Of a stretch of DNA of 64,000 nt, positions 1-19,598 are shown in pieces. A program made the position numbers and the translations under genes. The notes under the pieces are model-generated. The model ran no database searches. It was given only the letters and a program-made list of their open reading frames with translations, and had not been told where the DNA came from. Source of the stretch: Afipia sp. GAS231 (lineage in GTDB: Bacteria; Pseudomonadota; Alphaproteobacteria; Rhizobiales; Xanthobacteraceae); contig NZ_LT629703.1 in the NCBI RefSeq assembly GCF_900103365.1, positions 4,092,001-4,156,000 on the forward strand. The letters run 5' to 3'. Every line of letters starts with the position of its first letter. Position 1 is the stretch's first letter.

Positions 1-205
1 GGGTGAAATCCGCGACGGCAATGATTTGCTCTCGCGAGTCCGGCCCATAGGAGGCGGCGGACAGCCCGGCCAACTTGACGAAGTCAACCAGGTCGGGCGG
101 GACCGCCATTCGGACGTCATGGCCGCGGCGTTGCAGTTCCACACCGACCGCGGCACAGGGCTCGACGTCGCCGCGAGTCCCATGGGCTGCCAAAACGAAC
201 TTCAC
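1..205 (-). CDS. MGT-family glycosyltransferase, N-terminal part (runs off the window)
   Basis: The first 68 codons of a minus-strand gene that continues past base 1. It starts at a GTG at 205, with a purine-rich GGAAAG about 8 bases upstream. The N-terminus carries the segment [16 protein letters not shown] followed by [12 protein letters not shown], which is the signature of the GT1/MGT glycosyltransferases related to mycobacterial Rv1524/Rv1526c and to sterol or macrolide glycosyltransferases. These enzymes move a sugar from a nucleotide sugar onto a lipid or secondary metabolite at the cytoplasmic face. It lies on the same strand as, and 98 bp after, the PapA-like gene, so it may glycosylate the lipid made by that gene and the PKS. 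In M. tuberculosis Rv1526c lies beside pks5-papA4. The catalytic and sugar-binding C-terminal half is not visible, so donor and acceptor are unknown. Confidence 0.85.
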
Positions 206-260
206 CGGCGCAACTTTCCGCTGCCAGATACGTGGGCCAGTTTTTCGATGTGGGCCAAAT

Positions 261-306
261 CTTCGATGCCTACAAAACTTCGATGCCTACAAATCTTCGA
301 TGCCTA
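261..306. repeat. 17-bp tandem repeat, three units (last one partial)
   Basis: Two complete units (261-277 and 278-294) of CTTCGATGCCTACAAA plus A or T, followed by a 12-base partial unit at 295-306. The array lies between the start of the glycosyltransferase and the end of the PapA-like gene, and the last unit overlaps the PapA stop codon. An expanded or contracted copy number would change the distance between the two genes, not their reading frames. Confidence 0.8.
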
Positions 307-1749
307 ACTGGCTACGCGAACCGGCACCCCGGCCAAGCCGTCACCGACGGCACGGTGGAACACAGACATTAGCGCCTCCGTGTAGCGCCTGACGGATTCC
401 CGGGCAATCGGGTTTTTCGGATAGGAGACCATGATCGTGACCTCGTCGAACAGGCGGTAAACCGTAGAGTAGGCGAACGCCGGGTTTCTGCCGTCGGTGA
501 ACGCAGTCGCATTCACGCCCTTCATTGCGCTTGCGACGATGGCAGAAAGCGGAGGAAGTCCTGCGTCCATATAGTTCATCATGGTGAACTGAGGTCCAGG
601 TCTTCGCAGCCCGGGAGCCAATTCCAGCACCCGGTCGTACGGTACATTCGCCAGGTCGATATTTGCGTCGAACGACGCCTGGGCCACGCGGGCGGTTTCC
701 TCGAACGAGTTCGGGCGGATGGCAACGGTGAACGGTACCACGCCGGTAAACCATCCCATCGTCATGAAATCCGCCGGGTTCTTTCGTTTATCGATGGGAG
801 TGAGTCCGTAATACGTTTCCGCACCGGTTAACTCGTAATGCGTAAGGGCCACGCAGGCGAATAAACCGCCGCTGAACCTCACGCCGGTCTGCCGGCAAAT
901 GGCTTCGAACCGAGCCGTCTGCTCCGGACCCAATAGCCGCCTCACGTGGACTTCCCCGCCGTCTCGCATCGATTGCTCGCCGAGCGGCAGCGGGAAGTCC
1001 GGCAGCGTTCCGCCGTTGGCTTCCGCGAACTCGATCCACTTCCGCACCTCGGGCGATTCCAGCGTCACTCCCGATACATATTGGCTTTCCCGCAGGCAGA
1101 AATCGTCATAACTGGCTGCTGGTGGCAGCGTGACCGGTGCCTTGCCTTCCAGGAGGGCGTTGTAGTTCATCAAGATCTCTACATAAAAGCTGGCAATCAG
1201 CACCGGGTCGCAGTGGAGATGGTCGACCGACGCGTACAACGTAAAGCGGTCCTGGTACTGGATGACGCCGAACCTGAAGCAATCCCATTGCAGCGGGTCG
1301 GGCGTGGCCAACACGTGATCTCGCCACTCGAGCTGCGTCATCACGCCATACTCTTTAGCGACGAATTGAATATCGCGAGGATCCTGGATGGTGTGTCGGA
1401 CGATGTTCTGGGCGTCCTTGTATTCGAACCAGCTGCGGTACGTCGCGTGGCGCCGAAGGTGCGCGTTGAGGACGTAGGTGATGACGCGAATATCGCAGCG
1501 GCCGGGCACATCCCACGAGCCCATGACCGTGCGTGAATAATCGAGGCTTCGCTCCCGGAACTCGACATAGCCACGAAGATGGCCTGCCTGCATCGAGCTG
1601 GGAGGTACCGGGCTTATTGGCGCCAGCCGGGCGTTTTCAATGCTGCGGGGTGTTGGCCCCCAGGTAACGACTGAACCTGGTCCCGGATTCCAGTCGTAGG
1701 CGCTGCCTACTCGTAGCCCGTCGTGATCGGAGCCTCCACCTAAAAACAC
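304..1749 (-). CDS. PapA-type acyltransferase (PapA2/PapA3-like)
   Basis: A 481-residue condensation-domain-fold acyltransferase. The catalytic HxxxD motif is present as HLHCD at about residues 177-181, inside ASVDHLHCDP, the same context as HLCVDP of mycobacterial PapA2. Further PapA-like segments are PLQWDCFRFG, HLRRHATYRSWFE and MGWFTGVVP. Family members transfer a fatty or polyketide acyl group from a thioester onto trehalose or another polyol (PapA1/2 in sulfolipid, PapA3 in polyacyltrehalose). The start is a GTG preceded by AGGAAAGG. It lies 57 bp downstream of the PKS on the same strand, so it probably offloads the PKS product; the PKS has no thioesterase. Length is close to mycobacterial PapA2. 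Acceptor identity (trehalose) is inferred from the neighbouring otsA, not seen directly. Confidence 0.93.
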   Translation of the reverse strand: MFLGGGSDHDGLRVGSAYDWNPGPGSVVTWGPTPRSIENARLAPISPVPPSSMQAGHLRGYVEFRERSLDYSRTVMGSWDVPGRCDIRVITYVLNAHLRRHATYRSWFEYKDAQNIVRHTIQDPRDIQFVAKEYGVMTQLEWRDHVLATPDPLQWDCFRFGVIQYQDRFTLYASVDHLHCDPVLIASFYVEILMNYNALLEGKAPVTLPPAASYDDFCLRESQYVSGVTLESPEVRKWIEFAEANGGTLPDFPLPLGEQSMRDGGEVHVRRLLGPEQTARFEAICRQTGVRFSGGLFACVALTHYELTGAETYYGLTPIDKRKNPADFMTMGWFTGVVPFTVAIRPNSFEETARVAQASFDANIDLANVPYDRVLELAPGLRRPGPQFTMMNYMDAGLPPLSAIVASAMKGVNATAFTDGRNPAFAYSTVYRLFDEVTIMVSYPKNPIARESVRRYTEALMSVFHRAVGDGLAGVPVRVAS

Positions 1750-1806
1750 ATTTTCCCTTTCCTGATATCCTGAAGCAGTGCACCGTCCGTCGACGGAGGA
1801 TCTGCG

Positions 1807-4800
1807 TTACGCGGGCCTTGCGGGATTCTCTTCCTTGGGGGCCATCTTCTGGAACAGGTGATCCGCCAAGCCTCGAACGGTTGTGATGTCCGTAGAGGTG
1901 ATGCGAACCCCCGTCACGTTCTCGATTTGAATGCGCAGTTCGAGGTTGCCCAGCGAGTCGAGACCGTACTCGAAAAGCGGGTGGTCCGGGTTGACGCTGC
2001 GACGCAGGCTCAGACCGATCTGTTCCGAGAGCAGACGCCGCAGCCGGGCGGGCCACTCGTCGAGCGGCAGCTCGGCGAGTTCAGCGCGCAGTTTGCCCGA
2101 GCCTGAGTGCTTTTTCCCCGCGGCTTTGAACATCTCGAAGAACTTGCTGCGTTCCGCTATGGACGTGATCCACGGTGTTTTGATGAGCGGACTATAGCCA
2201 GTGTAGCTGCGGTTGTGGCGCAGCAGCTGCTCGAATGCATATGCGCCCTCGTCCGGAGTGATTGCGGCGCCGCTGTCTTCGGCAAACTTCGCCCCGCCGC
2301 CGATCTCTCCCCAGGCGCCCCAGGCAATTGCCGTGGCCGGCAGGCCCTGTGCGCGCCGCCAGTGGGCGAATGCATCCAGCCAGCTGTTGGCAGCCGCGTA
2401 GGCACCCTGACCCGGCGATCCCAGCAGCGCGGCCGCCGACGAGAACACGCAAAACCAGTCCAGCTCCGCGGCCGCGGTAGCCTCGTGCAGATTCCACGCG
2501 CCGTGCACCTTGGGCGCCCAGTCGCGGTCGATCAGTTCGTCGGTGATGTTCGTCAACGTGGCGTCCTCGACCACGGCGGCCGCGTGCAGCACGCCACGCA
2601 GCGGAAGTCCGGCTGCGGTCGCCGTCGCCAGCAAACGCTCCGCGGTATGAGCCTGAGCGATGTCACCGCGCTCCACCAACACATCGGACCCAATCGAACG
2701 GATGCGTTCGATTGTCTCGAGCACCTTTACCGTAGGCTCGGAACGAGAGTTGAGCACGATCCGGCGGGCGCCTGCGGCGGCCATCTTCTCGGCCAGGAAC
2801 AGTCCGAGGTCGCCCAAACCACCGGTGATAATGTAGGAGCCCTCCCGCCGGAAAGCCGCAACCTGCTCGGGCGGCCGCACCACGCTGCTGCGTCCGGCCC
2901 GCGGGATGTCGAGGACGAGCTTGCCGGTGTGTTCGGCCGCGCTCATCGCACGAACCGCCGTTACCGCATCGGCGAGCGGATAGTGCGTGCTCGCGGGCAT
3001 CGGCAGCACACCCTCGGCGATCAACCGGTACACGGTGCTCAGGATCCCGCTGACCTGCTGCGGATGGCTGGCCGACATCAGTCCCAGGTCAAGGCCCCAG
3101 AACGCGAGGTTGCGACGGAACGGGAAGAGTCCCAGTTTGGTGTCCCCGTAGATGTCGCGCTTGCCGATCTCGACGAACCGTCCGCCCGGCGCGAGCAGAT
3201 CGAGCCCTGCCAACTGCGCGGCGCCCGTCACCGAGTTGAGCACGACGTCCACGCCGTACCCATCGGTGTCGCGACGGATCTGATCGGCGAACTCGACGCT
3301 GCGCGAGTCGTAGACATGCGCGATTCCCATGTCGCACAATAGCTGTCGACGCTGCTCGCTGCCGGCGGTGGCAAAGATCTCGGCACCCGCCGCACGCGCG
3401 ATCGCGATCGCAGCCTGTCCCACGCCACCGGTTCCGGAGTGGATCAGTACCTTGTCGCCAGCCTTGATACGGGCAAGGCCGTCCAGGCCGTACCATGCGG
3501 TCGCGTGGGCCGTGGTTACCGCGGCGGCCTGGGCGTCGGTCATGCCCTCCGGCAGCTTGGTGGCCAGACGCGCATCACAGGTGACGAACGTGGCCCAGCA
3601 GCCGTCGGCCGACATGCCGCCGACGTGATCGCCGATCTTGTGGTTGGTGATGTCGGATCCGACGGCCGTCACCACGCCCGCGAAATCCGTGCCCAGCCGG
3701 GGCAAGGTCCCGTCGAGGCTCCGATAGAGCCCGAACGCGTTGAGAACATCGGCGAAGTTGATACTCGAGGCGGTGACCGCGACCTCGATCTGCCCGGGAC
3801 CCGGCGGGCTGCGGTCAAAAGCGGCGAATTCCATCGTTTGCAGGTCACCCGGAGTTCGGATGTGCATCCGCATGCCGTCGCGATCGTGTTCCGCGACGGT
3901 GGTTTGGCGCTCGTCGTGGTGCAGCGGAGCAGGGCACAGGCGCGCGGTGTACCACGCGTCGTTGCGCCACGCCGTTTCGTCTTCCCCCGGCGCCATCAGC
4001 AACAACTGGCGTACCACCTGATCGGTTCTGGTGCGCTCATCAACATCGATGTGAGTGGTCTGCAGGTGCGGGTGCTCGATGCCGATCACACGGAGCAGGC
4101 CGCGCAGTCCGCCCTGGTCCAGATTGGGAGTGTCGTCCGACAGCACCTTCTGAGCATTCCTGGTGATGACGTAAAGCCGAGGCGACGCGCCCTCGATGTC
4201 CAGCAGTTCGCGGGCGATGCGCACCACGTGGCGGACGTACTCACCGCCACGCGCGGCGCTTTCTCCGTCCGCATTTCCGTTCTTCGGCCCGGTGATCACG
4301 ACCACGCCGGCGTACCCGCCTTTTTCGATCTCTGCGCGCAGCCGCCCGGCCATCGCCCGATGGTCGGCCCGCCGGGGCCAGGACAGCGTGGTGCATTCCG
4401 CCTCGCGCGGCTTCATCGCATCGGTGAGCGCCGCCGCCAGGAGATCGGCGGCATCGGACGTGGTGACCAGAAGCCAGGCGCCAGTCCCGGTGGTGCCCAC
4501 CTCCGGCAGGTCGCGTTGCTGCCATTCCACGGTCAGCAACCGCTCGGCCATCACCCGGGCCTGCGTGGCGCCGGGCGAGATCCCTGTGCCCATTTGCAGT
4601 CCGCGCACCGTCAGCAGCACGTTGCCTTGCTTATCCAGGATGTCGAGGTCGGCCTCGATGGCGCCACCGGTCGCCGTCACCCTCGAGTAGCAGTAGCGGG
4701 CCGTGCTGAGGGGGCCGTGAACCCGCAGCTGCCGGACACCGAGCGGCAGCAGCAGGCCGCTGAGGCTGGCGTTCACAACACTGGGGTGGGCGGCGACCGA

Positions 4801-7800
4801 CTGAAAGCAGGCATCGAGCAGTGCCGGATGCACGCCGTAACTGCTCTGTTGTGTCCGGACCGCGCTGGGCAGACCGATCTCGGCCAACACCGTGGTGCTG
4901 TTTCCCTCAGCAGTGTGAGCGGCGGCAAGGCCGGCGAATGCCGGACCGTATTGAATGCCGCGGAGGTCCATCGCCTCCCGGAGGTTCGTACCTTCAACAC
5001 GGGTCGGGTGCGCGGCCAGCAACTCGTCGATGTCCTCGGCGGCGGGCCGCTCTTCATCGTCGGCCTTGTGCAACACTGCGGAAGCGCGCCGCGCTTGCAT
5101 CCCGTCCTCATTGGTCTCCACCACAAACGCGAAGGTGCCGGACACCTCTGCGGTTGCGCCAAGGCTGATTTGCCCGTGCTCGTCGAGGAGCAGCATCTGC
5201 TCGAAGCGGACACCGCTAACCCCGGATGCCTCGCCGAAGATGGTGCGGGCCGCGGTGAGCGCCATCTCGCAGTACGCCGCACCCGGCAGGGCGGCCTTGC
5301 CGTGGATCTGATGGTCACCCAGCCAGGGCAGCGTCGCGGTACCGATTTCGGCCTGCCAAACGTGGCGATCGGGTTGCTGGGGCAAGCGTACGTGCTGGCC
5401 CATCAACGGGTGAACCGCAACGCTCGAACGCAACGCGCTGGAGCTGTGACCCTCGCGGCTCAACAACAAGCTCCGGTGGGTCCAGGCCGGCAGTGGGGCA
5501 TCCATCAGATGTCCACCGGGATAGAGCAGGGAGAAGTCGACCATGGCACCGGTGGCGAAAAAGTCGCCCAACAACCCGCGCAGCCCGTGGGGTAGCGGCT
5601 GCTCCTTCCGCATCGCGGCAACTGCAGCTACGGTCATATCGAGGCTGCGGGCGGTTTGATCGATCGCATGGATCAGCAGCGGGTGGGGTGATAATTCACC
5701 GAAGACCCGGAAGCCGTCCTCCAGAGCCGCCTGCACCGCCGCCGAGAAACGCACCGTGTGGCGCAGGTTGTCGACCCAGTAGTTGGCGTCGCAGTAAGGC
5801 TCTTCGCGAGGGTCGAACGAGGTGGCGGAGTAGTACCGAACGTTCGGCGTCAACGGCTCGATCTCCGCCAGAACCTCGTAGAGTTCGTCGAGGATCGGAT
5901 CGACTTGCGGCGAATGCGATGCCACGTCGACCGCAACCTCGCGGGCCATCACATCGCGCTTCTCCCATGACGCGACCAACTTGCGGACTGTCTCGGTTGC
6001 GCCGCAAATAACCGTGGATTGCGGAGAGGCCACCACCGCCACCACGACGTCATCGACGCCGTGCGCCATGAGTTCCGAAAGTACTTGCTGGGCAGGCAGC
6101 TCTACCGACGCCATCGCGCCTGAACCGGCGATCTTGGTCATTAGTCGCGAGCGGCGGCAGATGATCCGCGCACCGTCTTCCAGCGACAGCGCTCCCGCGA
6201 CGACAGCGGCCGCGGACTCGCCCATCGAATGGCCGATGACCGCCCCAGGCCGGACTCCGTAGGATTTCATCGTGGCCGCCAGCCCGACCTGCATGGCGAA
6301 GATCGCTGGCTGGATCTGATCGATGCCGGTCACCTTCTCGGGTGAGGTCAGCGCGTCGGTTACCGAGAAGCCGGATTCGGCAGCGATCAGTGGCTCCATT
6401 TCGGCGATGGCCGCCGCGAATGCCGGCTCGTTCGCCAGCAGGTCCGCGCCCATTGCGGCCCACTGCGATCCATGGCCGGAGAACACCCAGACCGGACCGC
6501 GTTCGTCCTGCCCCACCACTTCCTGGTATATCGCATCACCTTCGGCGACCTTCCGCAGCGCCGCTACCAGCTCCGCGTTGGTGCTGGCAAGCACGGCTGT
6601 CCGCACTGAGCGGTGACCACGCCGGCGCGCAAGCGTGTAGGCCAGGTCCGGCGTCGCCAGGTCCGACGGTTGCGCCTCGACCCAGTCGGCTAGCCGCCCA
6701 GCGGCTTGCTGCAGTCCCACGGTCGACGAGGATGTCAGCGGGAACAGCAGGGGGCCGTCGCGGCCCGGTTTGATGGCCGCGCCGTTGCCGGAAAGCGGCT
6801 TGGGTGCCTCCTCGACGATCGCGTGCACATTCGTTCCGGAGATCCCGTACGCCGAGACCGCCGCACGTCGCGGCTGTCCGTCATCCAGCGGCCACGGCGT
6901 CGTCTCTTTCGGCACGAACAGCCCGGTGTCGATCCTGGCCAATGCATCAGGCAAGGCTTCGAAGTGCAGGTTCTTGGGGACGACGCCATGCCGGACGGAA
7001 AGCAGCGCTTTCATCATCCCCAGCGCACCGGCGGCCGCTTGAGTGTGCCCGAAATTGGTCTTCGAGGCGCCGAGGACGCAGGGGTTGTCGAGGCCGTAGA
7101 CCTCGGAAAGGCTAGTATACTCGATTGGGTCACCGACCGGAGTACCCGTGCCGTGCGCCTCGACCATGCCGACGGTGCCGGCGTCTACGCCTGCTGCGGC
7201 AAGAGCCGCGCGGTACACCGCGGTCTGCGCCTTGCCGGAGGGCATCGCGATGTTCGTGGTGTGGCCGTTATGGTTGGCCGCGGTGCTGCGGATCACACCG
7301 AGAATCCGGTCGCCATCCCGCTGCGCGTCCGGCAGGCGCTTGAGCAACAGGACGACGCAACCCTCGCCAGACACGAAGCCGTCTGCTTTGGCGTCGAACG
7401 CATGGCAATGCCCGGTGCCCGACAGCATGCCCCCCGCCGACGCCGATGCGGACCTGCGCGGCTCCATCATGACGTTGACGCCGCCCGCGAATGCAAGCTT
7501 GCTCTCTCCGTCGTTCAGGCTGCGGCATGCCTGATGGATCGCGAACAGGCCGGACGAGCATGCGGTGTCCACTGTGACCGCGGGCCCGCGCAGCCCGAGC
7601 GCATAAGCAATCCGCCCGGACGCCATGCAGGAAATGGTGCCTGTATTTCCATAAGGTCCGTCGAAGGCGTCGGTGGCGATGTGCACGAATTGGTAGTCGC
7701 CGTAGTTTAATCCGACGAAGACTCCTGTTTCAGCGGCGATCGTGCGCTTGGTGAGCCCGGCGTGTTCCATGGCTTCCCACGCGGTTTCCAACAGCAACCG

Positions 7801-8088
7801 ATGCTGAGGATCCATCGCCGTCGCTTCTTTTTCCGTGATGCCGAAGAAATCCGGGTCGAAGCCGCCGATGTCGTCCAGGAAAGAGCCCCACTTGCATATC
7901 GACCGGCCCGGCACCCCCGGCTCGGGGTCGTAGTAGTAGTCAGCGTCCCAGCGGTCGGCGGGAATCTCCGTGACGAGGTCGTCACCACGCAGCAGCGCTT
8001 CCCAACAGAGATCTGGGGAGTTGATGTCGCCCGGCAGCCGGCACGCCATCCCGATGACGGCGACCGCAGTCACACTTGCCTTGTCCAC
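1807..8088 (-). CDS. Mas/Pks2-type iterative reducing polyketide synthase
   Basis: A 2093-residue type I PKS with the full KS-AT-DH-ER-KR-ACP order of mycobacterial Mas, Pks2 and Pks5. Active sites look intact: KS Cys177 in DTACSS with His312 and His348; AT Ser621 in GHSMGES; DH HxxxGxxxxP at His926 and Asp1092; ER nucleotide site SGTGGVG near 1551-1557; KR GGLGDLG near 1756-1762 with Tyr1897; ACP Ser2045 in GLDSL. The AT carries VASH at 722-725, the variant found in methylmalonyl-using mycobacterial enzymes, so a methyl-branched fatty acid is expected. There is no thioesterase. The GTG at 8088 is chosen because AGGGAGAGG and GGGGGAG precede it; the frame also allows a GTG at 8139 (2110 residues). 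Long stretches read like Pks2/Mas, far closer than a generic PKS, suggesting transfer from an actinobacterium. No FadD/FAAL loading gene or MmpL exporter is visible nearby. Confidence 0.97.
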
Positions 8089-8247
8089 GCTCCCCCGCCT
8101 CTCCCTGCCTATTCCCAAGTTCCTATCACTGCTGCACACTCTTAGTCAGGGCTTTGATAAATATAACCGAATTTTTATGTGCGAGCTGGCAACCGTGTCC
8201 CACCATGGAGCTGCCGAATCAACGTTTTGCCGTCTCGGGAGGCTGTC
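8089..8247. promoter_or_regulatory. Divergent intergenic region between the PKS and otsA
   Basis: About 160 bp separates the chosen starts of the minus-strand PKS and the plus-strand otsA. Positions 8150-8180 are markedly AT-rich compared with the surroundings and contain TATATT on the minus strand and TATAAC on the plus strand, possible -10 elements for the two directions. No clear operator was found. Divergent arrangement suggests joint control, which is an inference. Confidence 0.35.
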
Positions 8248-9669
8248 GTGAGCGTGGTCGTCGTTTCCAATCGGGTGGCAGGAGCAAAAGCCGGTGAACC
8301 AATCTCGGGAGGATTGGAGGCAGCACTAATCCCGATGGTCAGCAGGCATGGTGCGACCTGGCTCGGTTTCGGCGGTGACGTGAGCAGCGCGTGTCGGGCG
8401 AGAAATTCCAGTGCAGATATCCGGGCCCTCGGCACTGGCGCGATCGTCGTCGTCGACCCGCCCATACAGCACTATATCAACTACTATGAGGGTTTCGCCA
8501 ATTCTGTTCTCTGGCCGGTACTACATTCGCGTGTCGATCTCATCCACGTTACGGCCGATCACTTCGGGTCCTATCGCGAAGTCAACGCCTTCATGGCGCG
8601 GGCGCTAATGCGCTTTGACAAGCCGGACTCCATTTTCTGGATCCACGATTATCATTTTCTCCCGCTTGGCGCCGAAATGCGCCGGCTTGGAATCGAGCGT
8701 CCGATCGGATTTTTTCTGCACACGCCGTGGCCGGACCGCCGCTGCATGGCGGCAGTGCCACATCATCGCGAGATGGTGCAGGAGATGCTGGCCTACGATC
8801 TCGTGGGCTTCCAGACGATCGAATTCCGCCAGAACTTCGAGGATTACCTGCGGTACGAACTGGGCGTAACCGTCAAGAATGACATGATCGCCAGCGCATG
8901 GGGCTGGACCAAGCTGGCGACCTTCCCGGTTGGTATCGACGTCGACGAATTCGCCGCGCGCGCGACCGTCGCCATCGAGCAACCGGACGTGTTGCGGTTG
9001 CGCGCGAGCCTGCAAAGCTCAAAGTTCGTGCTCGGTGTCGACCGGCTCGATTATTCGAAAGGCCTGGCTAGCCGTTTCCGCGCCTTCAGCCGGATGCTGG
9101 AGATCGAGCCGGGCCTGAAGCGCGTGGTGTCGTTTCTACAAGTCGCAGCCCCGTCGCGCGCCAATATTCGCGCCTATCGCGAACTGAAAGCCGATCTCGA
9201 CACTTTGGTGAGGGAGATCAACTGCCGGCATCGTCAGTCCGACTGGACGCCAATCCGCTATCTCAACCAGGAATTTTCACAGTCGACGCTGGCCGGGCTT
9301 TATCGGACCGCGGAGGTCGGCTTGGTGACGCCTTTTAGCGACGGCATGAACCTGGTGGCAAAGGAATTCATCGCCGCGCAAAACCCGGTCGATCCGGGCA
9401 TTCTGATATTGTCGACATTTGCCGGCGCAGCCAAAGAACTCGACGCAGCGCTTCTGGTCGATCCGCACGACGTCGACAGTATGGCGCTGCAGATTGCCAG
9501 GGCGCTCGCTATGACCATTGAAGAACGCCGCGAACGCTGGCAGCAAATGGTAACAAAATTGAAGCGCGGCTCGCTGCAAAACTGGTTCTCCGCGTTCCTG
9601 GATGCACTTTCGGAGGCCCGCCGCTCGCCGTCGGTGCCGGCAAACCCGCCGCGGATGATACTGCGTTGA
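8248..9669 (+). CDS. otsA: Trehalose-6-phosphate synthase (GT20)
   Basis: A 473-residue GT20 enzyme that joins UDP-glucose and glucose-6-phosphate to give trehalose-6-phosphate in the cytoplasm. The N-terminal VVVVSNRVA, the glycine pair in ISGGLEAAL, WIHDYHFLPLG, IGFFLHTPWP, VDRLDYSKGL and SDGMNLVAKEFIAAQ match the OtsA substrate-binding motifs. The start is placed at the GTG at 8248 because GGGAGG lies 5 bases upstream and the protein then begins where OtsA proteins begin; an in-frame upstream ATG at 8179 would add 23 residues unlike the family. No otsB phosphatase lies beside it. The sequence looks alphaproteobacterial, unlike the mycobacterial-looking PKS opposite. Its position suggests it supplies trehalose for acylation, while a general stress or desiccation role is equally possible. 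Confidence 0.95.
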   Translation: MSVVVVSNRVAGAKAGEPISGGLEAALIPMVSRHGATWLGFGGDVSSACRARNSSADIRALGTGAIVVVDPPIQHYINYYEGFANSVLWPVLHSRVDLIHVTADHFGSYREVNAFMARALMRFDKPDSIFWIHDYHFLPLGAEMRRLGIERPIGFFLHTPWPDRRCMAAVPHHREMVQEMLAYDLVGFQTIEFRQNFEDYLRYELGVTVKNDMIASAWGWTKLATFPVGIDVDEFAARATVAIEQPDVLRLRASLQSSKFVLGVDRLDYSKGLASRFRAFSRMLEIEPGLKRVVSFLQVAAPSRANIRAYRELKADLDTLVREINCRHRQSDWTPIRYLNQEFSQSTLAGLYRTAEVGLVTPFSDGMNLVAKEFIAAQNPVDPGILILSTFAGAAKELDAALLVDPHDVDSMALQIARALAMTIEERRERWQQMVTKLKRGSLQNWFSAFLDALSEARRSPSVPANPPRMILR

Positions 9670-13441: not shown

Positions 13442-13628
13442 GGGTTCACCTTCTCGTCGTCGCAGAATCGAAGCCGCGCTGCATTGCGACTAGGCCGAAG
13501 GTTGCAACGGCCCCACCGGATTGCCATTGGCAAATGGAATCCGGAAGGGTTACGGTGGCGGGCATTGGCCAAAGGCATCCAAGAATGCCGGTTATCAAGG
13601 CACGTTCATATTGTCTGGGAGGACACGC

Positions 13629-14882
13629 ATGGAAAAGCCGCAACGGCCCCGGTCGGTCGATCGCAGGACTATTCTCAAGACCAGCGCCGCCATCGCGGCG
13701 GTGCAGGTTGTTTCGCCCTTCATCATCACTGCCCGCGGCGAAACGCCGGTGCGGATCGGCATGGTAGATCCCCTGACCGGCGTCTATGCCGCCATCGCGC
13801 AGGGCGAAGTGGTGGGCGCAAAATTCGCCGCCGAAGAAATCAACAAGAAAGGCGGCATCCTGGGCCGGCCGGTCGAACTCCTGATTGAGGACTCGGCCAA
13901 TGATGTCGGCACCGGAGTGCAGAAAACGCGCAAGCTGATCGAGCGCGACAATGTGAGCTTCATTATCGGCGACGTGAATTCCGGCATCGCGATCGCGATG
14001 GCGCAGGTCACCAGCGAAAAGAAGGTGCTCCATATCGTCTCCGGTGGACACACCGATCCGATAACGGGCACCAACTGCTCGTGGAATGTGTTCCGGGTCT
14101 GCAACTCCACCACCATGGACGCCAACGCCGTCGCCTCCACGCTGATGGAGAAGTTCGGCAAGAAATGGTACTTCCTGACACCCGACTATGCCTATGGCCA
14201 TTCAGTGCAAGCCGGCTTCGAAAAGCTGCTGAAAGCCGCCGGTGGCACCTCTTCCGGCGCGCTGGTGCCGCTGGGCACGGCGGATTACTCCGCCTATCTG
14301 ATCCAGGCGAAGGCCTTTGGCCCGCAGGTGCTGATCAACGTCATGGGCGGCGGCGACCAGGTCTCGAGCCTCAAGCAGTTCGTCCAGTTTGGCCTCGACA
14401 AGCAGATGGCGGTCGGCGGCACCCTGTTCGAGCTGGAAGGCATCCGCGCCGTGCCGGACGGTGCGCGGGTCGGATGGTGGACCATGGAATGGTGGTGGGA
14501 CCAGCCAGGCGTGCCGCATGTCGCGGAATTCAACGCCTCGATCAAGAAGATTACAGGCGTCGCGGCGACGGCGCGCAACTGGTTCGGTTATGCGTCGGTG
14601 CAGACGCTGGCGCTGATCGCGAACCAGGAAAAGACGCTTGATGCGCCAAAACTCGCGCATGCGCTTGAAGGGTTTAAGCTGCCGCCCGAGGTCGCTTTGC
14701 AACCGGGCGCGCCCGCGTTCCGTGCCGGCGACCATGAATTGATGAGCACGGTGTTCGTCGGCGAGGCGCATCCGCCGCAGGGCGACCCGGACAACATGTT
14801 CACGGTGAAAAACCCCATCCCCGGCGAAAAAGCCGCCGGACCGGTCGAAAACACCGGCTGCAAGATCCAGTGGCCGGCCTGA
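13629..14882 (+). CDS. ABC transporter substrate-binding protein, Tat-exported (first of a tandem pair)
   Basis: A 417-residue periplasmic binding protein of the leucine/amide/urea (peripla_BP_6) family. The N-terminus has a twin-arginine signal (DRRTILK followed by a hydrophobic stretch and ARGE), so it is probably folded before export. The mature start RIGMVDPLTGVYA and the segment EDSANDVGTGVQKTRKLIE are typical of the family. The start at 13629 is supported by GGGAGG six bases upstream. It lies ahead of a close paralogue and of livHMGF, with which it forms a plausible operon. The ligand cannot be read from the sequence; relatives bind amides, urea, short-chain amino acids or aromatic acids. 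Confidence 0.92.
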   Translation: MEKPQRPRSVDRRTILKTSAAIAAVQVVSPFIITARGETPVRIGMVDPLTGVYAAIAQGEVVGAKFAAEEINKKGGILGRPVELLIEDSANDVGTGVQKTRKLIERDNVSFIIGDVNSGIAIAMAQVTSEKKVLHIVSGGHTDPITGTNCSWNVFRVCNSTTMDANAVASTLMEKFGKKWYFLTPDYAYGHSVQAGFEKLLKAAGGTSSGALVPLGTADYSAYLIQAKAFGPQVLINVMGGGDQVSSLKQFVQFGLDKQMAVGGTLFELEGIRAVPDGARVGWWTMEWWWDQPGVPHVAEFNASIKKITGVAATARNWFGYASVQTLALIANQEKTLDAPKLAHALEGFKLPPEVALQPGAPAFRAGDHELMSTVFVGEAHPPQGDPDNMFTVKNPIPGEKAAGPVENTGCKIQWPA

Positions 14883-14983
14883 ATACCAACGGATGACGCC
14901 TGATGCCTGACCGCACCACGCGAAATGATTCTGCAACAGGAATAACGCCGCAACGAAGAACCGGCGTCCCAATGAGGAATCCC

Positions 14984-16240
14984 ATGACGACTTTCACCCC
15001 GAAATTCGACCGCCGCACGCTCATCACAGGCGCCGCCGCGCTCGGCGCATTCCAGGTAGCCTCCCCCTTCATCATCCAGGCCCGCGGTGAAACAGCGATC
15101 CGGATCGGCATGGTCGATCCTCTCACCGGCGTCTATGCCGCGCCCGCCGGCAACGAGGTGATGGGCGCCAAGCTTGCCGTCGAGCAGATGAACGCTAAGG
15201 GTGGCATTCTCGGGCGCCAGGTCGAATTGCTGGTGGAGGATTCCGCCAACGACGTCGGGACGGGCGTGCAGAAGGCGCGCAAGCTGATCGAGCGTGACCA
15301 GGTCAATTTCATGATCGGCGACGTCAACTCCGGCATCGCCGCCGCCATAGCCCAGGTTACCGCCGAAAAGAAGATCCTGCACATCGTCTCCGGCGGCCAT
15401 ACCGACTCGATCACCGGCAAGGACTGCAAGTGGAACGTGTTCCGCGTTTGCAACACCACGCGGATGGAAGCGAATTCAGTGTCGAGCGTGTTGTTCGGCA
15501 AGTATGGGAAGAAATGGCACTTCATCACGCCCGACTATGCGTTCGGCCACACACTGTATGAGGCCTGCACCGACGATTTGAAAAAGCTCGGCGGCACTGT
15601 CTCCGGCAATGAGCTCACGCCGCTCGGCACCACGGATTTCTCGGCCTACCTGATCAAGGCGCGCGCGGCCAATCCGGACGTGCTGATCCTGCTGGTGCAG
15701 GGTTCCGACATGATCAACTGCCTCAAGCAGGTTGTGCAGTTCGGGCTCAACAAGCAGATCCATGTCGCGGGAACGCAGCAGGAACTGGAATCGCTCGCCG
15801 CGCTGCCGCCGGAGGCGCGCATAGGTGTCTGGATGTTCGAATGGTACTGGAAACAGCCGGGCGTGGCGGGTGTCGATAAATTTGTTGCCGACGTTCGCAA
15901 AGTGAATAAGGGCAACGTGCCGACCGCGCGGCACTGGTTCGGCTACGCCTCGGCGATGTCCTTTGCCCTGGTGGCAAACCAGGAAAAGACGCTCGACGCG
16001 GTCAAGCTTGCGGCGGCGCTGGAGAATTTCGAGCTGCCGGACGACGTCAAGCTGCAGCCGAACAAGGTTTACTACCGCAAGGGCGATCATCAACTGATGA
16101 CATCCTCCTTCGTCGGCGAGGCGCAGTCGACAGGCAAGGACGACCCGGAAGACCTGTACCGTGTCGACGTCGTCGTGCCCGGCGACAAGACGGCGCCCGC
16201 CGTTGAAGAGACCGGTTGCAAAGTCCAGTGGCCGGCCTGA
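14984..16240 (+). CDS. ABC transporter substrate-binding protein, Tat-exported (second of a tandem pair)
   Basis: A 418-residue paralogue of the preceding gene: both share the twin-arginine leader, the ARGE cleavage region and the mature beginning IRIGMVDPLTGVYAA, and both end in CK(I/V)QWPA. A local duplication is the simplest explanation. The start at 14984 is chosen because a GAGGA lies six bases ahead; an ATG at 14972 is an alternative. The signal is DRRTLITGAAALG. The gene precedes livH by 73 bp. The two proteins probably present different or overlapping ligands to one membrane complex. Confidence 0.92.
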   Translation: MTTFTPKFDRRTLITGAAALGAFQVASPFIIQARGETAIRIGMVDPLTGVYAAPAGNEVMGAKLAVEQMNAKGGILGRQVELLVEDSANDVGTGVQKARKLIERDQVNFMIGDVNSGIAAAIAQVTAEKKILHIVSGGHTDSITGKDCKWNVFRVCNTTRMEANSVSSVLFGKYGKKWHFITPDYAFGHTLYEACTDDLKKLGGTVSGNELTPLGTTDFSAYLIKARAANPDVLILLVQGSDMINCLKQVVQFGLNKQIHVAGTQQELESLAALPPEARIGVWMFEWYWKQPGVAGVDKFVADVRKVNKGNVPTARHWFGYASAMSFALVANQEKTLDAVKLAAALENFELPDDVKLQPNKVYYRKGDHQLMTSSFVGEAQSTGKDDPEDLYRVDVVVPGDKTAPAVEETGCKVQWPA

Positions 16241-16313
16241 CCATGAAATTCGTCACGACAGCGATCCCGGGAGCGCTTCACGGGTCGTGTTCATTGTCCC
16301 CGTCCGGTGCTCC

Positions 16314-17183
16314 ATGACACTGCTGCTTCTGTTCAACATCACCAACGGGCTCATCGTCGGCGCGTTCTACGTGCTGATGGCGCTGGGCCTCTCGCTCATT
16401 CTCAACCTCAGCAACACGATCAATTTCGCCCATGGCGGATTTCTCGTCATTGGCGGCTACATCGCCTATGCGATCACGCCCTATGTCGGCTTCTGGGGTG
16501 CGCTGCTGATCGCGCCGCCTTTGACCGCCGTGATCGGACTTGCGGTCGAACGAGTGCTGATCCGACCGCTCTACGGACGCGATCCCCTGTACAGCCTGCT
16601 TTTGACCTTCGGCCTCGCCTTCATCATCGAGGATGGAACCCGCTTTATCTTCGGTCCGCAAGGCAAACCCGTCACCATTCCGGCATTCCTGGCGCAGCCC
16701 CTGAGCGGTGATTTTTTCTTCATCACCGGCTACCGCCTGTTCATGGTAGCTGTGGTATTCATCGCCGTCGCAGCGCTTTTTCTGCTGCTGCGCTATACAC
16801 GGCTGGGCATCCGCATCCGCGCCGGCACGCTCGATCTCGAGACCGTCGCGGCCCTCGGGATTAACGTCGGACTGCTGCGCTCCCTCAATTTCGCGGTTGG
16901 CATTTACCTGGCCGGTCTCAGCGGCGTTCTCGCCGCCGGGCAATTGGGGCTCGAGCCGACCATGGGGACCGGCCTTCTGATGCCGAGCTTCATTGCCATT
17001 ATCGTCGGCGGTATTGGCAGCTTGCCGGGGACGTTGCTCGGAGGCCTGTTGATCGGGCTGGCCTCGGGATTGACCGCGGTGTTCCTGCCCGCGGCCAGCG
17101 AAGCCGTCATTTATGTCATGATGGCGGTCGTCCTTCTGATACGTCCGCGCGGCTTGCTGGGCGAGGAAGGAATGATGTCTTGA
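16314..17183 (+). CDS. livH: Branched-chain amino acid-type ABC transporter permease LivH
   Basis: A 289-residue inner-membrane permease with about eight hydrophobic helices. The N-terminal GLIVGAFYVLMALGLSLIL and NTINFAHGGFLVIGG are the conserved start of LivH permeases, and the C-terminal LIRPRGLLGEEG is also typical. It pairs with LivM, translated from a start that overlaps its stop. An in-frame extension upstream to 16161 has no family similarity, so the ATG at 16314 is used. Confidence 0.93.
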   Translation: MTLLLLFNITNGLIVGAFYVLMALGLSLILNLSNTINFAHGGFLVIGGYIAYAITPYVGFWGALLIAPPLTAVIGLAVERVLIRPLYGRDPLYSLLLTFGLAFIIEDGTRFIFGPQGKPVTIPAFLAQPLSGDFFFITGYRLFMVAVVFIAVAALFLLLRYTRLGIRIRAGTLDLETVAALGINVGLLRSLNFAVGIYLAGLSGVLAAGQLGLEPTMGTGLLMPSFIAIIVGGIGSLPGTLLGGLLIGLASGLTAVFLPAASEAVIYVMMAVVLLIRPRGLLGEEGMMS

Positions 17184-18133
17184 CGTCGGAACAGACCCGC
17201 AAGCTGATCGTCCTCGCGGCGATCTGGGCAGCCTTGATCTTCGCCCCCTACTGGATGGTGCCGCTCGGCGGTTATACCGCTCTGGCCACCCGCGTGCTGG
17301 TGCTTGGCCTCGCGGCGATGTCGGTGAATTTTCTGCTTGGATTCACCGGCGTACTATCGTTCGGGCATGCCGCTTATTTCGGGCTCGGCGCCTACGGCGC
17401 CGGGCTGACGCTCAAATTCCTGGCGCCGAGCACGCCACTGGCGCTTCTGATGGGCATGCTGCTGGGAGGCCTTTGCGGTGCCATCCTCGGCACACTGATC
17501 GTGCGCCGCCGCGGCGTCTACTTCGCGATGGTGACGATCGCCTTTGGCCAGGTATTCTACTACATCGCTTTTCAGTGGAGTTCGGTAACGGGCGGCGATG
17601 ACGGCCTGCGCGGCTTCTCGCGTCAACCGCTCGACTTCGGTTTGTTCAAGTTCGACATCCTGTCGAATGCCAACAATTTCTATTTCTTCGTCCTGTTCTG
17701 TTTCGCGCTTGCGGTCGGTGCCATGGGGTTCATCCTGCGCTCGCCGTTCGGGCGCACCATGATTGCGATCCGCGAGAACGAGCGGCGTTCGCGCTTTCTG
17801 GGACTTCCCGTCGAGCGGCACATCTGGATCGCCTTTACCCTGTCATGCTTCTTCATGGGATTTGCCGGGGCTCTCTATGCACTGGTCAATAATTTTGCCG
17901 ATCCGAAAGGCCTGCATTACAGCCAATCCGGCGATTTCGTCATGATGGCGGTAATGGGCGGCATGCGCAGCTTCTGGGGACCGCTGCTCGGCGCAACCGT
18001 GTTCGTTGTGCTGCAGGATTATTTGTCCAGTGTTACCGTCAACTGGATGTCGTTCGTTGGACTGCTGTTCGTCCTTGTGGTGCTGTTCTTTCCGCGCGGC
18101 CTGCTCGGTTTCCTGCAACGGAGCAAGGCATGA
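17180..18133 (+). CDS. livM: Branched-chain amino acid-type ABC transporter permease LivM
   Basis: A 317-residue polytopic permease. NFLLGFTGVLSFGHAAYFGLGAYGAG and FGRTMIAIRENERRS are LivM family landmarks; the latter is the cytoplasmic loop that contacts the ATPases. The start is a TTG overlapping the livH stop by four bases, with GAGGAAGG about nine bases upstream, so translation is probably coupled. The C-terminus has the usual FPRGLLG. Confidence 0.93.
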   Translation: MTSEQTRKLIVLAAIWAALIFAPYWMVPLGGYTALATRVLVLGLAAMSVNFLLGFTGVLSFGHAAYFGLGAYGAGLTLKFLAPSTPLALLMGMLLGGLCGAILGTLIVRRRGVYFAMVTIAFGQVFYYIAFQWSSVTGGDDGLRGFSRQPLDFGLFKFDILSNANNFYFFVLFCFALAVGAMGFILRSPFGRTMIAIRENERRSRFLGLPVERHIWIAFTLSCFFMGFAGALYALVNNFADPKGLHYSQSGDFVMMAVMGGMRSFWGPLLGATVFVVLQDYLSSVTVNWMSFVGLLFVLVVLFFPRGLLGFLQRSKA

Positions 18134-18879
18134 ACGTTCTCGAAATCGCCAACGTCATCAAGCGCTTTGGCAACCTCGTGGCGGTGCGCGAGGTATCGCT
18201 GAATGTGGCCAAGGGCGAACTATGCGCCATCATAGGGCCGAACGGCGCGGGAAAGACCACTTTCTTCAACCTGATCTCGGGATTCTTTCCGCCCACCGCC
18301 GGCACCATCACCTTCGACGGCAGTGACATCACCAAACTGTCGACACATGAGCGCGTCACCCGCGGCATGGCGCGCACCTTCCAGATCACCGAGATTTTTC
18401 CCGAACTCACGGTGTTCGAAAACGTCCGCATCGCCGCCGAAGTCGCCAGCGGATATCGTTTGCGGCCGTGGATCAACCGCTCGGAACAGGCGCAGGTCTA
18501 TTCCCGCGTCGAAGAGACGCTCAAGCTGGTGTCACTGGAAACCAAGACCGACCGGCTGGTCGGTGAACTCGCCCACGGCGACCAGCGTGCTGCTGAGATC
18601 GCGATGGCGCTCGCGCTGAAACCGCATCTGCTGCTGCTCGACGAGCCAACCGCCGGCATGGGCGACCAGGAGACGTTCCAGATCACGCAATTGATCCGCC
18701 GCCTGCACCGCGACAGCAACTACACCATCGTGCTGATCGAACACGACATGCGCGTGGTGTTTCATCTTGCCGACCGTATCTGCGTGCTCGATCAGGGCAA
18801 GATGCTGGCGCAGGGCACGCCACAGGAAATCGCCGCCAACGAGACCGTTCAGGCGGCCTATCTGGGCACCGCCGCATGA
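18130..18879 (+). CDS. livG: ABC transporter ATPase LivG
   Basis: A 249-residue ATPase with Walker A GPNGAGKTT and Walker B LLLLDEPTAGM, which carries the glycine-methionine ending usual for LivG, and an EHDM switch histidine. The signature motif is unusual: VGELAHGDQRAAEIA in place of LSGGQ, a form seen in LivG proteins of this transporter subgroup. Its ATG overlaps the livM stop (ATGA). It powers import together with LivF. Confidence 0.93.
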   Translation: MNVLEIANVIKRFGNLVAVREVSLNVAKGELCAIIGPNGAGKTTFFNLISGFFPPTAGTITFDGSDITKLSTHERVTRGMARTFQITEIFPELTVFENVRIAAEVASGYRLRPWINRSEQAQVYSRVEETLKLVSLETKTDRLVGELAHGDQRAAEIAMALALKPHLLLLDEPTAGMGDQETFQITQLIRRLHRDSNYTIVLIEHDMRVVFHLADRICVLDQGKMLAQGTPQEIAANETVQAAYLGTAA

Positions 18880-19598
18880 CCGCCGCATTGACCGCCGAAG
18901 GCCTCCACACCTACTACGGCAAGAGCCACATCCTGCATGGCGTCAACCTCGAGGTTGCCGAGGGCAAGATCACCGCCCTGCTTGGCCGCAACGGCGCCGG
19001 CAAGACCACGACCTTGCGAAGCCTGATGGGGCTAACGCCCGCGCGCGAAGGCAAGGTCACGATCTTCGGAGCGGAGACCACGCGCTGGCCGACCTTTCGG
19101 ATCGCCGCGGCTGGCGTCGGCTATGTGCCCGAAGGCCGTCGCATCTTTGCCAATCTCAGCGTCGAGGAAAACCTCAAGGTCCCGCTCGAACGCGGCGGGC
19201 CGTGGACCATTGCGCGGATCTACCAGCTTTTTCCCCGGCTTGAAGAACGCAAGCTCAATCGTGGCCGTCAGCTTTCCGGCGGCGAGCAGGAAATGCTTTC
19301 GATCGCTCGTGCGCTGCTGCTCAATCCTCGCCTGCTCATTCTCGACGAGCCTTCGCAAGGCCTGGCGCCGCTGATTGTGCGCGAGGTGTTTCGTATCGTC
19401 CAGCAGATGAAAGCCGAGGGTATTTCCGTTCTGCTGGTCGAACAGAACGCGAGGATGAGCCTGGAAATCGCCGATGAAGCCTATGTGCTGGACGATGGCA
19501 TCGTGGTCTATTCCGGGCATGCACATGAACTTGCAGTAGACGAGGCGCGTGTCCGGGCGCTCGCCGGCGCGAGTGCCGAGGAATGGACCCTGACGTGA
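18876..19598 (+). CDS. livF: ABC transporter ATPase LivF
   Basis: A 240-residue ATPase with Walker A GRNGAGKTT, signature LSGGEQEML and Walker B LLILDEPSQGLAP, all LivF-like. Its ATG overlaps the livG stop by four bases. It is the last gene of the seven-kilobase importer operon. The 136 bp that follow contain no obvious terminator hairpin with a T-run. Confidence 0.93.
   Translation: MTAALTAEGLHTYYGKSHILHGVNLEVAEGKITALLGRNGAGKTTTLRSLMGLTPAREGKVTIFGAETTRWPTFRIAAAGVGYVPEGRRIFANLSVEENLKVPLERGGPWTIARIYQLFPRLEERKLNRGRQLSGGEQEMLSIARALLLNPRLLILDEPSQGLAPLIVREVFRIVQQMKAEGISVLLVEQNARMSLEIADEAYVLDDGIVVYSGHAHELAVDEARVRALAGASAEEWTLT

Follow-up and report, generated by a model that had tools for sequence, protein, structure and literature searches.

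A mycobacterial-type locus for a putative acylated sugar lipid in Bradyrhizobium

A Bradyrhizobium lineage is likely to have acquired a lipooligosaccharide (LOS)/acyltrehalose-type locus from a slow-growing Mycobacterium, to have kept its biosynthetic enzymes, and to have replaced the parts specific to the mycobacterial envelope. The locus occupies the left edge of the 64,000-nucleotide stretch analysed here (the window, bases 4,092,001 to 4,156,000 of the source genome) and extends approximately 11 kb to the left of window base 1. The source genome, termed G000, is a Bradyrhizobium genome in a single contig of 7.58 Mb that is 99.99% complete and 0.04% contaminated. A second Bradyrhizobium carrier is termed G041 (single contig, 9.1 Mb), and loci fetched for comparison carry L numbers. 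The gene set looks intact and probably serves to make a cell-surface sugar lipid whose fatty chains are branched.

A first-pass annotation of the window described a Mas/Pks2/Pks5-type polyketide synthase (PKS) with all domains, and profile searches bear this out. The pks gene (window 1807 to 8139, minus strand) has 2110 codons as called, although a GTG at 8088 is the more likely start. It has no internal stop and encodes an iterative type I enzyme of approximately 2,100 residues with Pfam domains in the order KS-AT-DH-ER-KR-ACP in one protein and without a thioesterase. The protein scores 3793 bits against the Pks2 family model NF041183 (cut-off 2400) and 2877 bits against the MAS structure 9d2y. 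All catalytic motifs checked are in place, with starts at 191, 327 and 362 (KS), 636 and 739 (AT, GHSMG and VASH), 943 (DH), 1569 (ER), 1773 and 1914 (KR), and 2061 (ACP). Both AT motifs are the same as in Mycobacterium L005, and the enzyme is predicted to use methylmalonyl-CoA for the synthesis of multimethyl-branched acids.

The adjacent gene (window 304 to 1749, minus strand) encodes a PapA-type acyltransferase of 481 amino acids (PF00668). Its earlier description as PapA2/PapA3-like agrees with its best solved relative, the trehalose-2-sulfate acyltransferase PapA2 (structure 6aef, 481 bits), and several PapA relatives are named trehalose acyltransferase in their source records. An HX3DX14Y arrangement, which we take to be the PapA motif, is present as H177, D181 and Y196, and none of these three residues varies across the 8 rows aligned. 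With PapA2 as the nearest solved relative, the protein is predicted to acylate trehalose or a trehalose derivative. Next is a glycosyltransferase of the UGT/GT28 type (GT1; 431 amino acids; PF06722/PF03033) encoded on the minus strand at window −1090 to 205 (genome C1:4090910-4092205), which is cut by the window edge such that window 1 to 205 holds its first 68 codons. The amino acid identity of GT1 is 81% to its counterpart in Mycobacterium L052 and 87% to that in G041. The first-pass description called this enzyme Rv1524/Rv1526c-like, and its likeness to Rv1526c is presumed.

The left flank of G000 was the proposed place to look for FAAL, MmpL or further glycosyltransferase genes. A fatty acyl-AMP ligase (FAAL) and a second glycosyltransferase (GT2) are indeed encoded there, together with a second condensation-fold acyltransferase (AT2), and all three have mycobacterial relatives, but MmpL was not found. 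FAAL scores 935.9 bits against NF004509 (cut-off 775), falls below the cut-offs of 1100 for the narrower FadD28 and FadD21 models (892 and 852 bits, respectively), and has FadD23 as its nearest solved structure (778 bits). AT2 has no sequence relative in PDB at E <= 1. Its predicted model matches the condensation/PapA/WS-DGAT superfamily, and its residues S131-H132 and D136 are invariant in 21 of 21 rows. The open reading frame orf172 of the first gene call (genome 4085094-4085612) was rejected as a gene and is an antisense shadow of AT2.

A scan of species genomes for the PKS, from which records close to G000 may be left out, yielded 67 loci, and 65 of these are titled mycobacteria. The other two are a Nocardiopsis locus (L071) whose PKS is 35% identical, and L053, a metagenome-assembled genome titled Bifidobacterium breve that carries a mycobacterial-type PKS at 60% identity and is probably mis-binned or mislabelled. 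The best PKS matches among the 67 loci belong to Mycobacterium, with 84% amino acid identity over approximately 2,106 residues, or the whole protein. For the remaining proteins, the best mycobacterial matches by tblastn reach 81% (GT1), 81% (PapA), 72% (FAAL), 67% (GT2) and 63% (AT2), and AT2 is 68% identical to a protein of M. heidelbergense. At the DNA level, Mycobacterium sp. UM_CSW matches window −1034 to 8193 in a single unbroken alignment of 9,240 bp with 81.5% identity, which is far beyond chance.

In seven of the eight mycobacterial loci compared by blastn, this homology stops at window 8175 to 8193; the eighth, L064, is cut inside pks. The end point falls between the likely starts of pks (8088) and of the divergent gene otsA (8248), with mycobacterial-type DNA 5′ of pks at window 8089 to 8193, and therefore the foreign segment abuts a trehalose synthase gene at its edge. 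Homology with G041 continues past this point to window 9711.

Phylogenetic trees also point to Mycobacterium as the source. These were quick trees without bootstrap, built from hand-picked rows and, for PKS, PapA and GT1, rooted with a second type of Bradyrhizobium genes that is described below. The rows comprised 34 of 73 matching loci for PKS, 29 of 43 for PapA (as used in the approximately unbiased, or AU, test) and 28 of 30 for GT1, each with our own sequences added. In all three trees, the G000 and G041 copies pair together and are nested inside Mycobacterium. Of the mycobacteria sampled, the M. interjectum/paraense/alsense group is nearest. A Mycobacterium clade that excludes the Bradyrhizobium copies is rejected with AU p-values of 7.9e-5 (PKS), 1.3e-5 (PapA) and 0.0013 (GT1), which are nominal because the groups were named after database matches already known. 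The transfer of a mycobacterial-type pathway, as first proposed from the window alone, is thus supported, and membership of the proteins in an ordinary proteobacterial PKS or condensation family is rejected by the same three trees. In a FAAL tree of 37 rows without an outgroup, M. bohemicum and M. asiaticum are close to the G000/G041 pair.

A larger PapA tree of 102 rows groups 15 proteins without an assigned host with both Bradyrhizobium copies, suggesting that the nearest donor is unsampled. These 15 are drawn from P0121-P0132, P0142, P0146, P0154 and P0158, and one is 95% identical. A search of 72,556 plasmid records at E <= 1e-30 gave no PapA relative, and thus no transfer vehicle is seen. 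The GC content at third codon positions (GC3) of the locus genes is 0.72-0.80, and L005 and L052, which are near relatives, have 0.90-0.92. However, the same genes in the mycobacterial loci L064 and L020 have values of 0.72-0.81, which makes GC3 a weak argument on origin.

The otsA gene (window 8179 to 9669 as called, plus strand) encodes a trehalose-6-phosphate synthase and probably starts at the GTG at 8248, which follows GGGAGG. The protein scores 330 bits against PF00982 and 500 bits against TIGR02400, under the cut-off of 565 for the latter. Its divergent position beside the set had been recognized at first pass, but its inclusion in the mycobacterial DNA is not upheld: a tblastn search of the 67 loci at E <= 1e-10 gave no relative of otsA, which is therefore not part of that DNA, and the position at which the homology ends led to the same rejection. 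Genes matching otsA at E <= 1e-150 are present in at least 255 of 265 Bradyrhizobium genomes (genome searches scored at most 4-6 candidates per genome). Among the matches listed, the G041 relative scores 947 bits with 87% identity, and every other match has 621 bits or less. The otsA gene beside pks, which has the same divergent position in both genomes, is on this distribution best read as a locus-specific paralogue, a rhizobial partner gene of a type found in 2 of the 265 genomes.

PapA-like matches at E <= 1e-20 occur in 35 of the 265 genus genomes, namely G000, G041 (84% identity), 13 genomes at 40-41% and 20 at 26-32%, and the locus of the first type is found in two of them, G000 and G041. 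At E <= 1e-60, PapA was detected in 10 of 391 genomes sampled from the family, 1 of 385 from the class and 2 of 398 from the phylum, all within Bradyrhizobium. The G041 locus has the order LptF/G-like, GT2, AT2, FAAL, methyltransferase, GT1, PapA, PKS and otsA, in which the methyltransferase is 72-85% identical to mycobacterial ones. The two genomes have 90% DNA identity over 10.8 kb and have the pks-otsA junction in common. All six locus genes (PKS, PapA, GT1, FAAL, AT2 and GT2) are open in both, and their dN/dS values of 0.26, 0.21, 0.22, 0.27, 0.30 and 0.21, respectively, reveal purifying selection; the value for OtsA is 0.42. Values of dS between the two genomes are uneven, hinting at a mosaic history: PKS and OtsA have 0.16, whereas FAAL, GT1, GT2, PapA and AT2 have 0.28-0.40. 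A search for NodA matched none of 4 genomes, and none of 14 controls matched either.

Several neighbouring genes are common to the surroundings of the locus in G000 and G041, where they appear in different order. HprK-related and NTP_transf_5 genes (genome C1:4088619-4090936) lie between FAAL and GT1 in G000 and beyond otsA in G041, and an RgpF gene is likewise among the neighbours in both. Adjoining the locus in G000 is an O-antigen-like region (genome C1:4074073-4081180) with rmlC/rmlD-type and Wzm/Wzt-type ABC genes, which includes an rve-domain transposase at genome 4074073-4075245.

The missing MmpL is the most informative difference from the mycobacterial loci. Our neighbour search covered 23 of the 67 loci. 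Six of these are too short for the MmpL region, and all of the remaining 17, which have enough DNA, carry an MmpL gene located between GT1 and FAAL. MmpL12 is needed for LOS transport in M. marinum, according to PMC12507525. No donor-type MmpL was found in G000 or G041; whole-genome searches gave only partial matches at 23-25% identity, none of them in the locus. Instead, a divergent LptF/LptG-family gene adjoins GT2 in both genomes (80% identical between them). The encoded protein scores 84 bits (G000) and 92 bits (G041) against PF03739, above the cut-off of 27.9. G000 carries a stronger-scoring adjacent LptF/LptG-family pair elsewhere, presumably the housekeeping lptF/lptG, and the locus copy is a third. 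Its score against the LptF equivalog model, given below, marks the locus gene as a paralogue and not as LptF itself.

These components can be assembled into a scheme in which FAAL would activate a fatty acid as acyl-AMP and load it onto the PKS, which would then extend the chain iteratively with methylmalonyl-CoA, with each step fully reduced, to yield a methyl-branched acid. Methylmalonyl-CoA mutase family genes are present in G000 and G041. PapA and AT2 would transfer the acyl chains to trehalose supplied with help of the local OtsA, and sugars would be added by GT1, GT2 and perhaps RgpF. The place of MmpL would be taken by the lone LptF/LptG-family permease, perhaps with the LptB of the cell, or by another envelope exporter. 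The substrates, the order of steps, the product, trehalose as the acceptor and export by the locus permease are all predictions from gene sequences, and trehalose as acceptor gains support from the locus-specific otsA. A fuller version, which we put forward only tentatively and with less than even confidence, is that a methyl-branched acyltrehalose glycolipid resides in a Gram-negative outer membrane, that its synthesis came from a slow-growing Mycobacterium with MmpL exchanged for an LptF/LptG-type permease and a dedicated otsA joined on where the foreign DNA ends, and that the second type of Bradyrhizobium locus employs a separate MacAB/DevBCA-like pump.

Several observations weigh against the overall explanation of a transferred and re-equipped locus. 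An AT2 tree of 57 rows does not decide the direction of transfer, and L052 and L064, the mycobacterial loci with a GT2, carry it at a different place. Described LOS loci have two pks genes, pks5 and pks5.1 (PMC11361433), compared to the one PKS in the G000 locus, where no other open reading frame exceeds 800 codons within genome 4060001-4120000, the stretch searched; one pks is seen also in several fetched mycobacterial stretches. The G000 copy may represent a reduced pathway, since a methyltransferase of the kind in mycobacterial loci was not found in the G000 stretch read but is retained in G041. A Sap-type gene, which is present in 3 of the 23 mycobacterial loci examined, was also not found in that stretch. 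At 92 bits, the LptF/G-like protein does not reach the cut-off of 230 for the LptF equivalog model TIGR04407, and it may serve another lipid. Finally, activation of the PKS carrier protein is in doubt because an ACPS-family search of G000 gave a single match, located beside pdxJ and resembling AcpS by eye, as its only phosphopantetheinyl transferase; G041 has a second match.

Some of the same evidence would fit other explanations. The same transferred locus might serve an acceptor other than trehalose, such as a glycan of the O-antigen-like region, with otsA present for stress or by chance. The RgpF, Wzm/Wzt-type and rmlC/rmlD-type neighbours favour this possibility, as does the occurrence of RgpF, HprK-related and NTP_transf_5 genes in different order near the G041 locus. 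However, both genomes with the locus-type otsA also carry the locus, with otsA at the same place, and the best solved match of PapA acts on trehalose-2-sulfate, and we therefore consider a different acceptor rather unlikely. The locus might also be a relic, or unproductive because carrier-protein activation or export is lacking. The lone AcpS-like transferase of G000, the lack of an MmpL among its matches, and the failure to find a Sap-type gene or a methyltransferase in the stretch read are all consistent with this explanation, but it is made improbable by six open genes in both genomes, intact PKS motifs and dN/dS values of 0.21-0.30, where decay would cause a drift towards 1.

Transfer in the reverse direction, with mycobacteria as recipients and either Bradyrhizobium or a soil bacterium outside the sample as donor, could be read into the host-less PapA proteins and the undecided AT2 tree, but the PKS, PapA and GT1 trees, with their nominal p-values, make it very improbable. 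A chimeric assembly or mycobacterial contamination would fit the high identity to Mycobacterium, and the GC3 values of L064 and L020 keep base composition alone from excluding it, but we reject this explanation as having next to no probability given a single-contig genome with 99.99% completeness and 0.04% contamination, a second single-contig genome with the same locus and junction at 90% identity, a PKS whose best identity among the 67 loci is 84%, and GC3 values below those of L005 and L052.

Methyl-branched acyltrehaloses are generally seen as a hallmark of the mycobacterial envelope. A member of Bradyrhizobium, a plant- and soil-associated genus, with the same enzymes would reveal the role of such a lipid outside the mycomembrane. 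It would offer a system without pathogenicity in which to study the chemistry of Pks, PapA and FAAL, and would allow a test of whether synthesis of these lipids can be uncoupled from their export and then linked anew to Lpt-like or DevBCA-like machines. The locus is also a clear example of an extensive envelope pathway that has crossed between phyla, spanning approximately 16 kb with a 2.9-kb rhizobial insert included. For rhizobia and Alphaproteobacteria, no report of a pathway like this was found in the portions of the open-licence literature available to us. Other genes of the LOS region, namely Rv1500-Rv1508c and Rv1525, are listed in a 2009 study on gene transfer into M. tuberculosis (PMC3087520).

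Farther to the right in the window, positions 13521 to 16240 encode two tandem, similar-looking proteins of the solute-binding type (453 and 445 amino acids), followed by permease- and ATPase-type genes at 16161 to 19598, all as judged by eye.

The second type of Bradyrhizobium locus corresponds to the 13 genomes with PapA at 40-41% identity, and its neighbourhood was read in seven of these (G252, G007, G059, G058, G084, G103 and G119). A full-length PKS approximately 50% identical to that of G000 is present in the first five; G103 retains a remnant of approximately 100 residues, and G119 has none. The one second-type PKS scanned, from G007, scores 2566 bits against NF041183. Three AT2-like genes follow in these loci. 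In G252 (C1:5453047-5470808; L104/L105), these adjoin genes for an HlyD/MacA-type adaptor, an ABC ATPase, two MacB/FtsX permeases and a UGT-type GT1 (53% identity). G007, G103, G058 and G084 likewise carry the ATPase and the two permeases, and G119 has part of one permease; the G059 stretch read ends before the pump genes. No otsA is present in the second-type stretches read. By analogy, a glycolipid pump is a natural reading of the MacAB/DevBCA-like set, which may be compared with the MacB-like DevBCA that exports heterocyst glycolipids with HgdD (PMC6161253).

Among known systems, the mycobacterial LOS locus of slow growers (pks5/papA/mmpL12) has the same order and strand of pks-papA-GT1 and of FAAL-AT2 as G000, and the first block has 81% DNA identity over 9.2 kb. 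We take the fetched mycobacterial loci to be LOS loci from their gene content and from presumed synteny with the H37Rv pks5 region. Such loci combine pks, FadD, Pap and glycosyltransferase genes (PMC11361433), a content that is found in G000. In contrast, the host of the G000 locus is Gram-negative, no MmpL was found, otsA and an LptF/LptG-family gene are added, and HprK-related and NTP_transf_5 genes intervene between FAAL and GT1. Because the MmpL and second pks features are not found, we classify the locus as derived from the mycobacterial LOS/acyltrehalose type rather than as a member of it.

The sulfolipid-1 and diacyl/polyacyltrehalose pathways employ Pks2-PapA1/PapA2-FadD23 and Pks3/4-PapA3, respectively. 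G000 resembles these in its Pks2-type PKS, which scores above the NF041183 cut-off, and in the closest solved structures to its PapA and FAAL, which are PapA2 and FadD23, respectively, and differs in that neither a sulfotransferase nor an MmpL is among the genes scanned. The second-type loci (for example, that of B. amphicarpaeae, whose PapA is identical to the one in G007) share with G000 the Pks2-type PKS, PapA, AT2-like genes and, in G252, GT1, whereas identities of only approximately 50% for PKS and 40% for PapA, the three AT2-like genes and the MacA/HlyD-MacB pump genes set them apart. With LptF/LptG permeases, the locus gene has in common a score above the PF03739 cut-off, and differs in being a single gene without a partner alongside. 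The DevBCA-HgdD exporter has its counterpart in the MacAB/DevBCA-like gene set of the second type, a candidate exporter.

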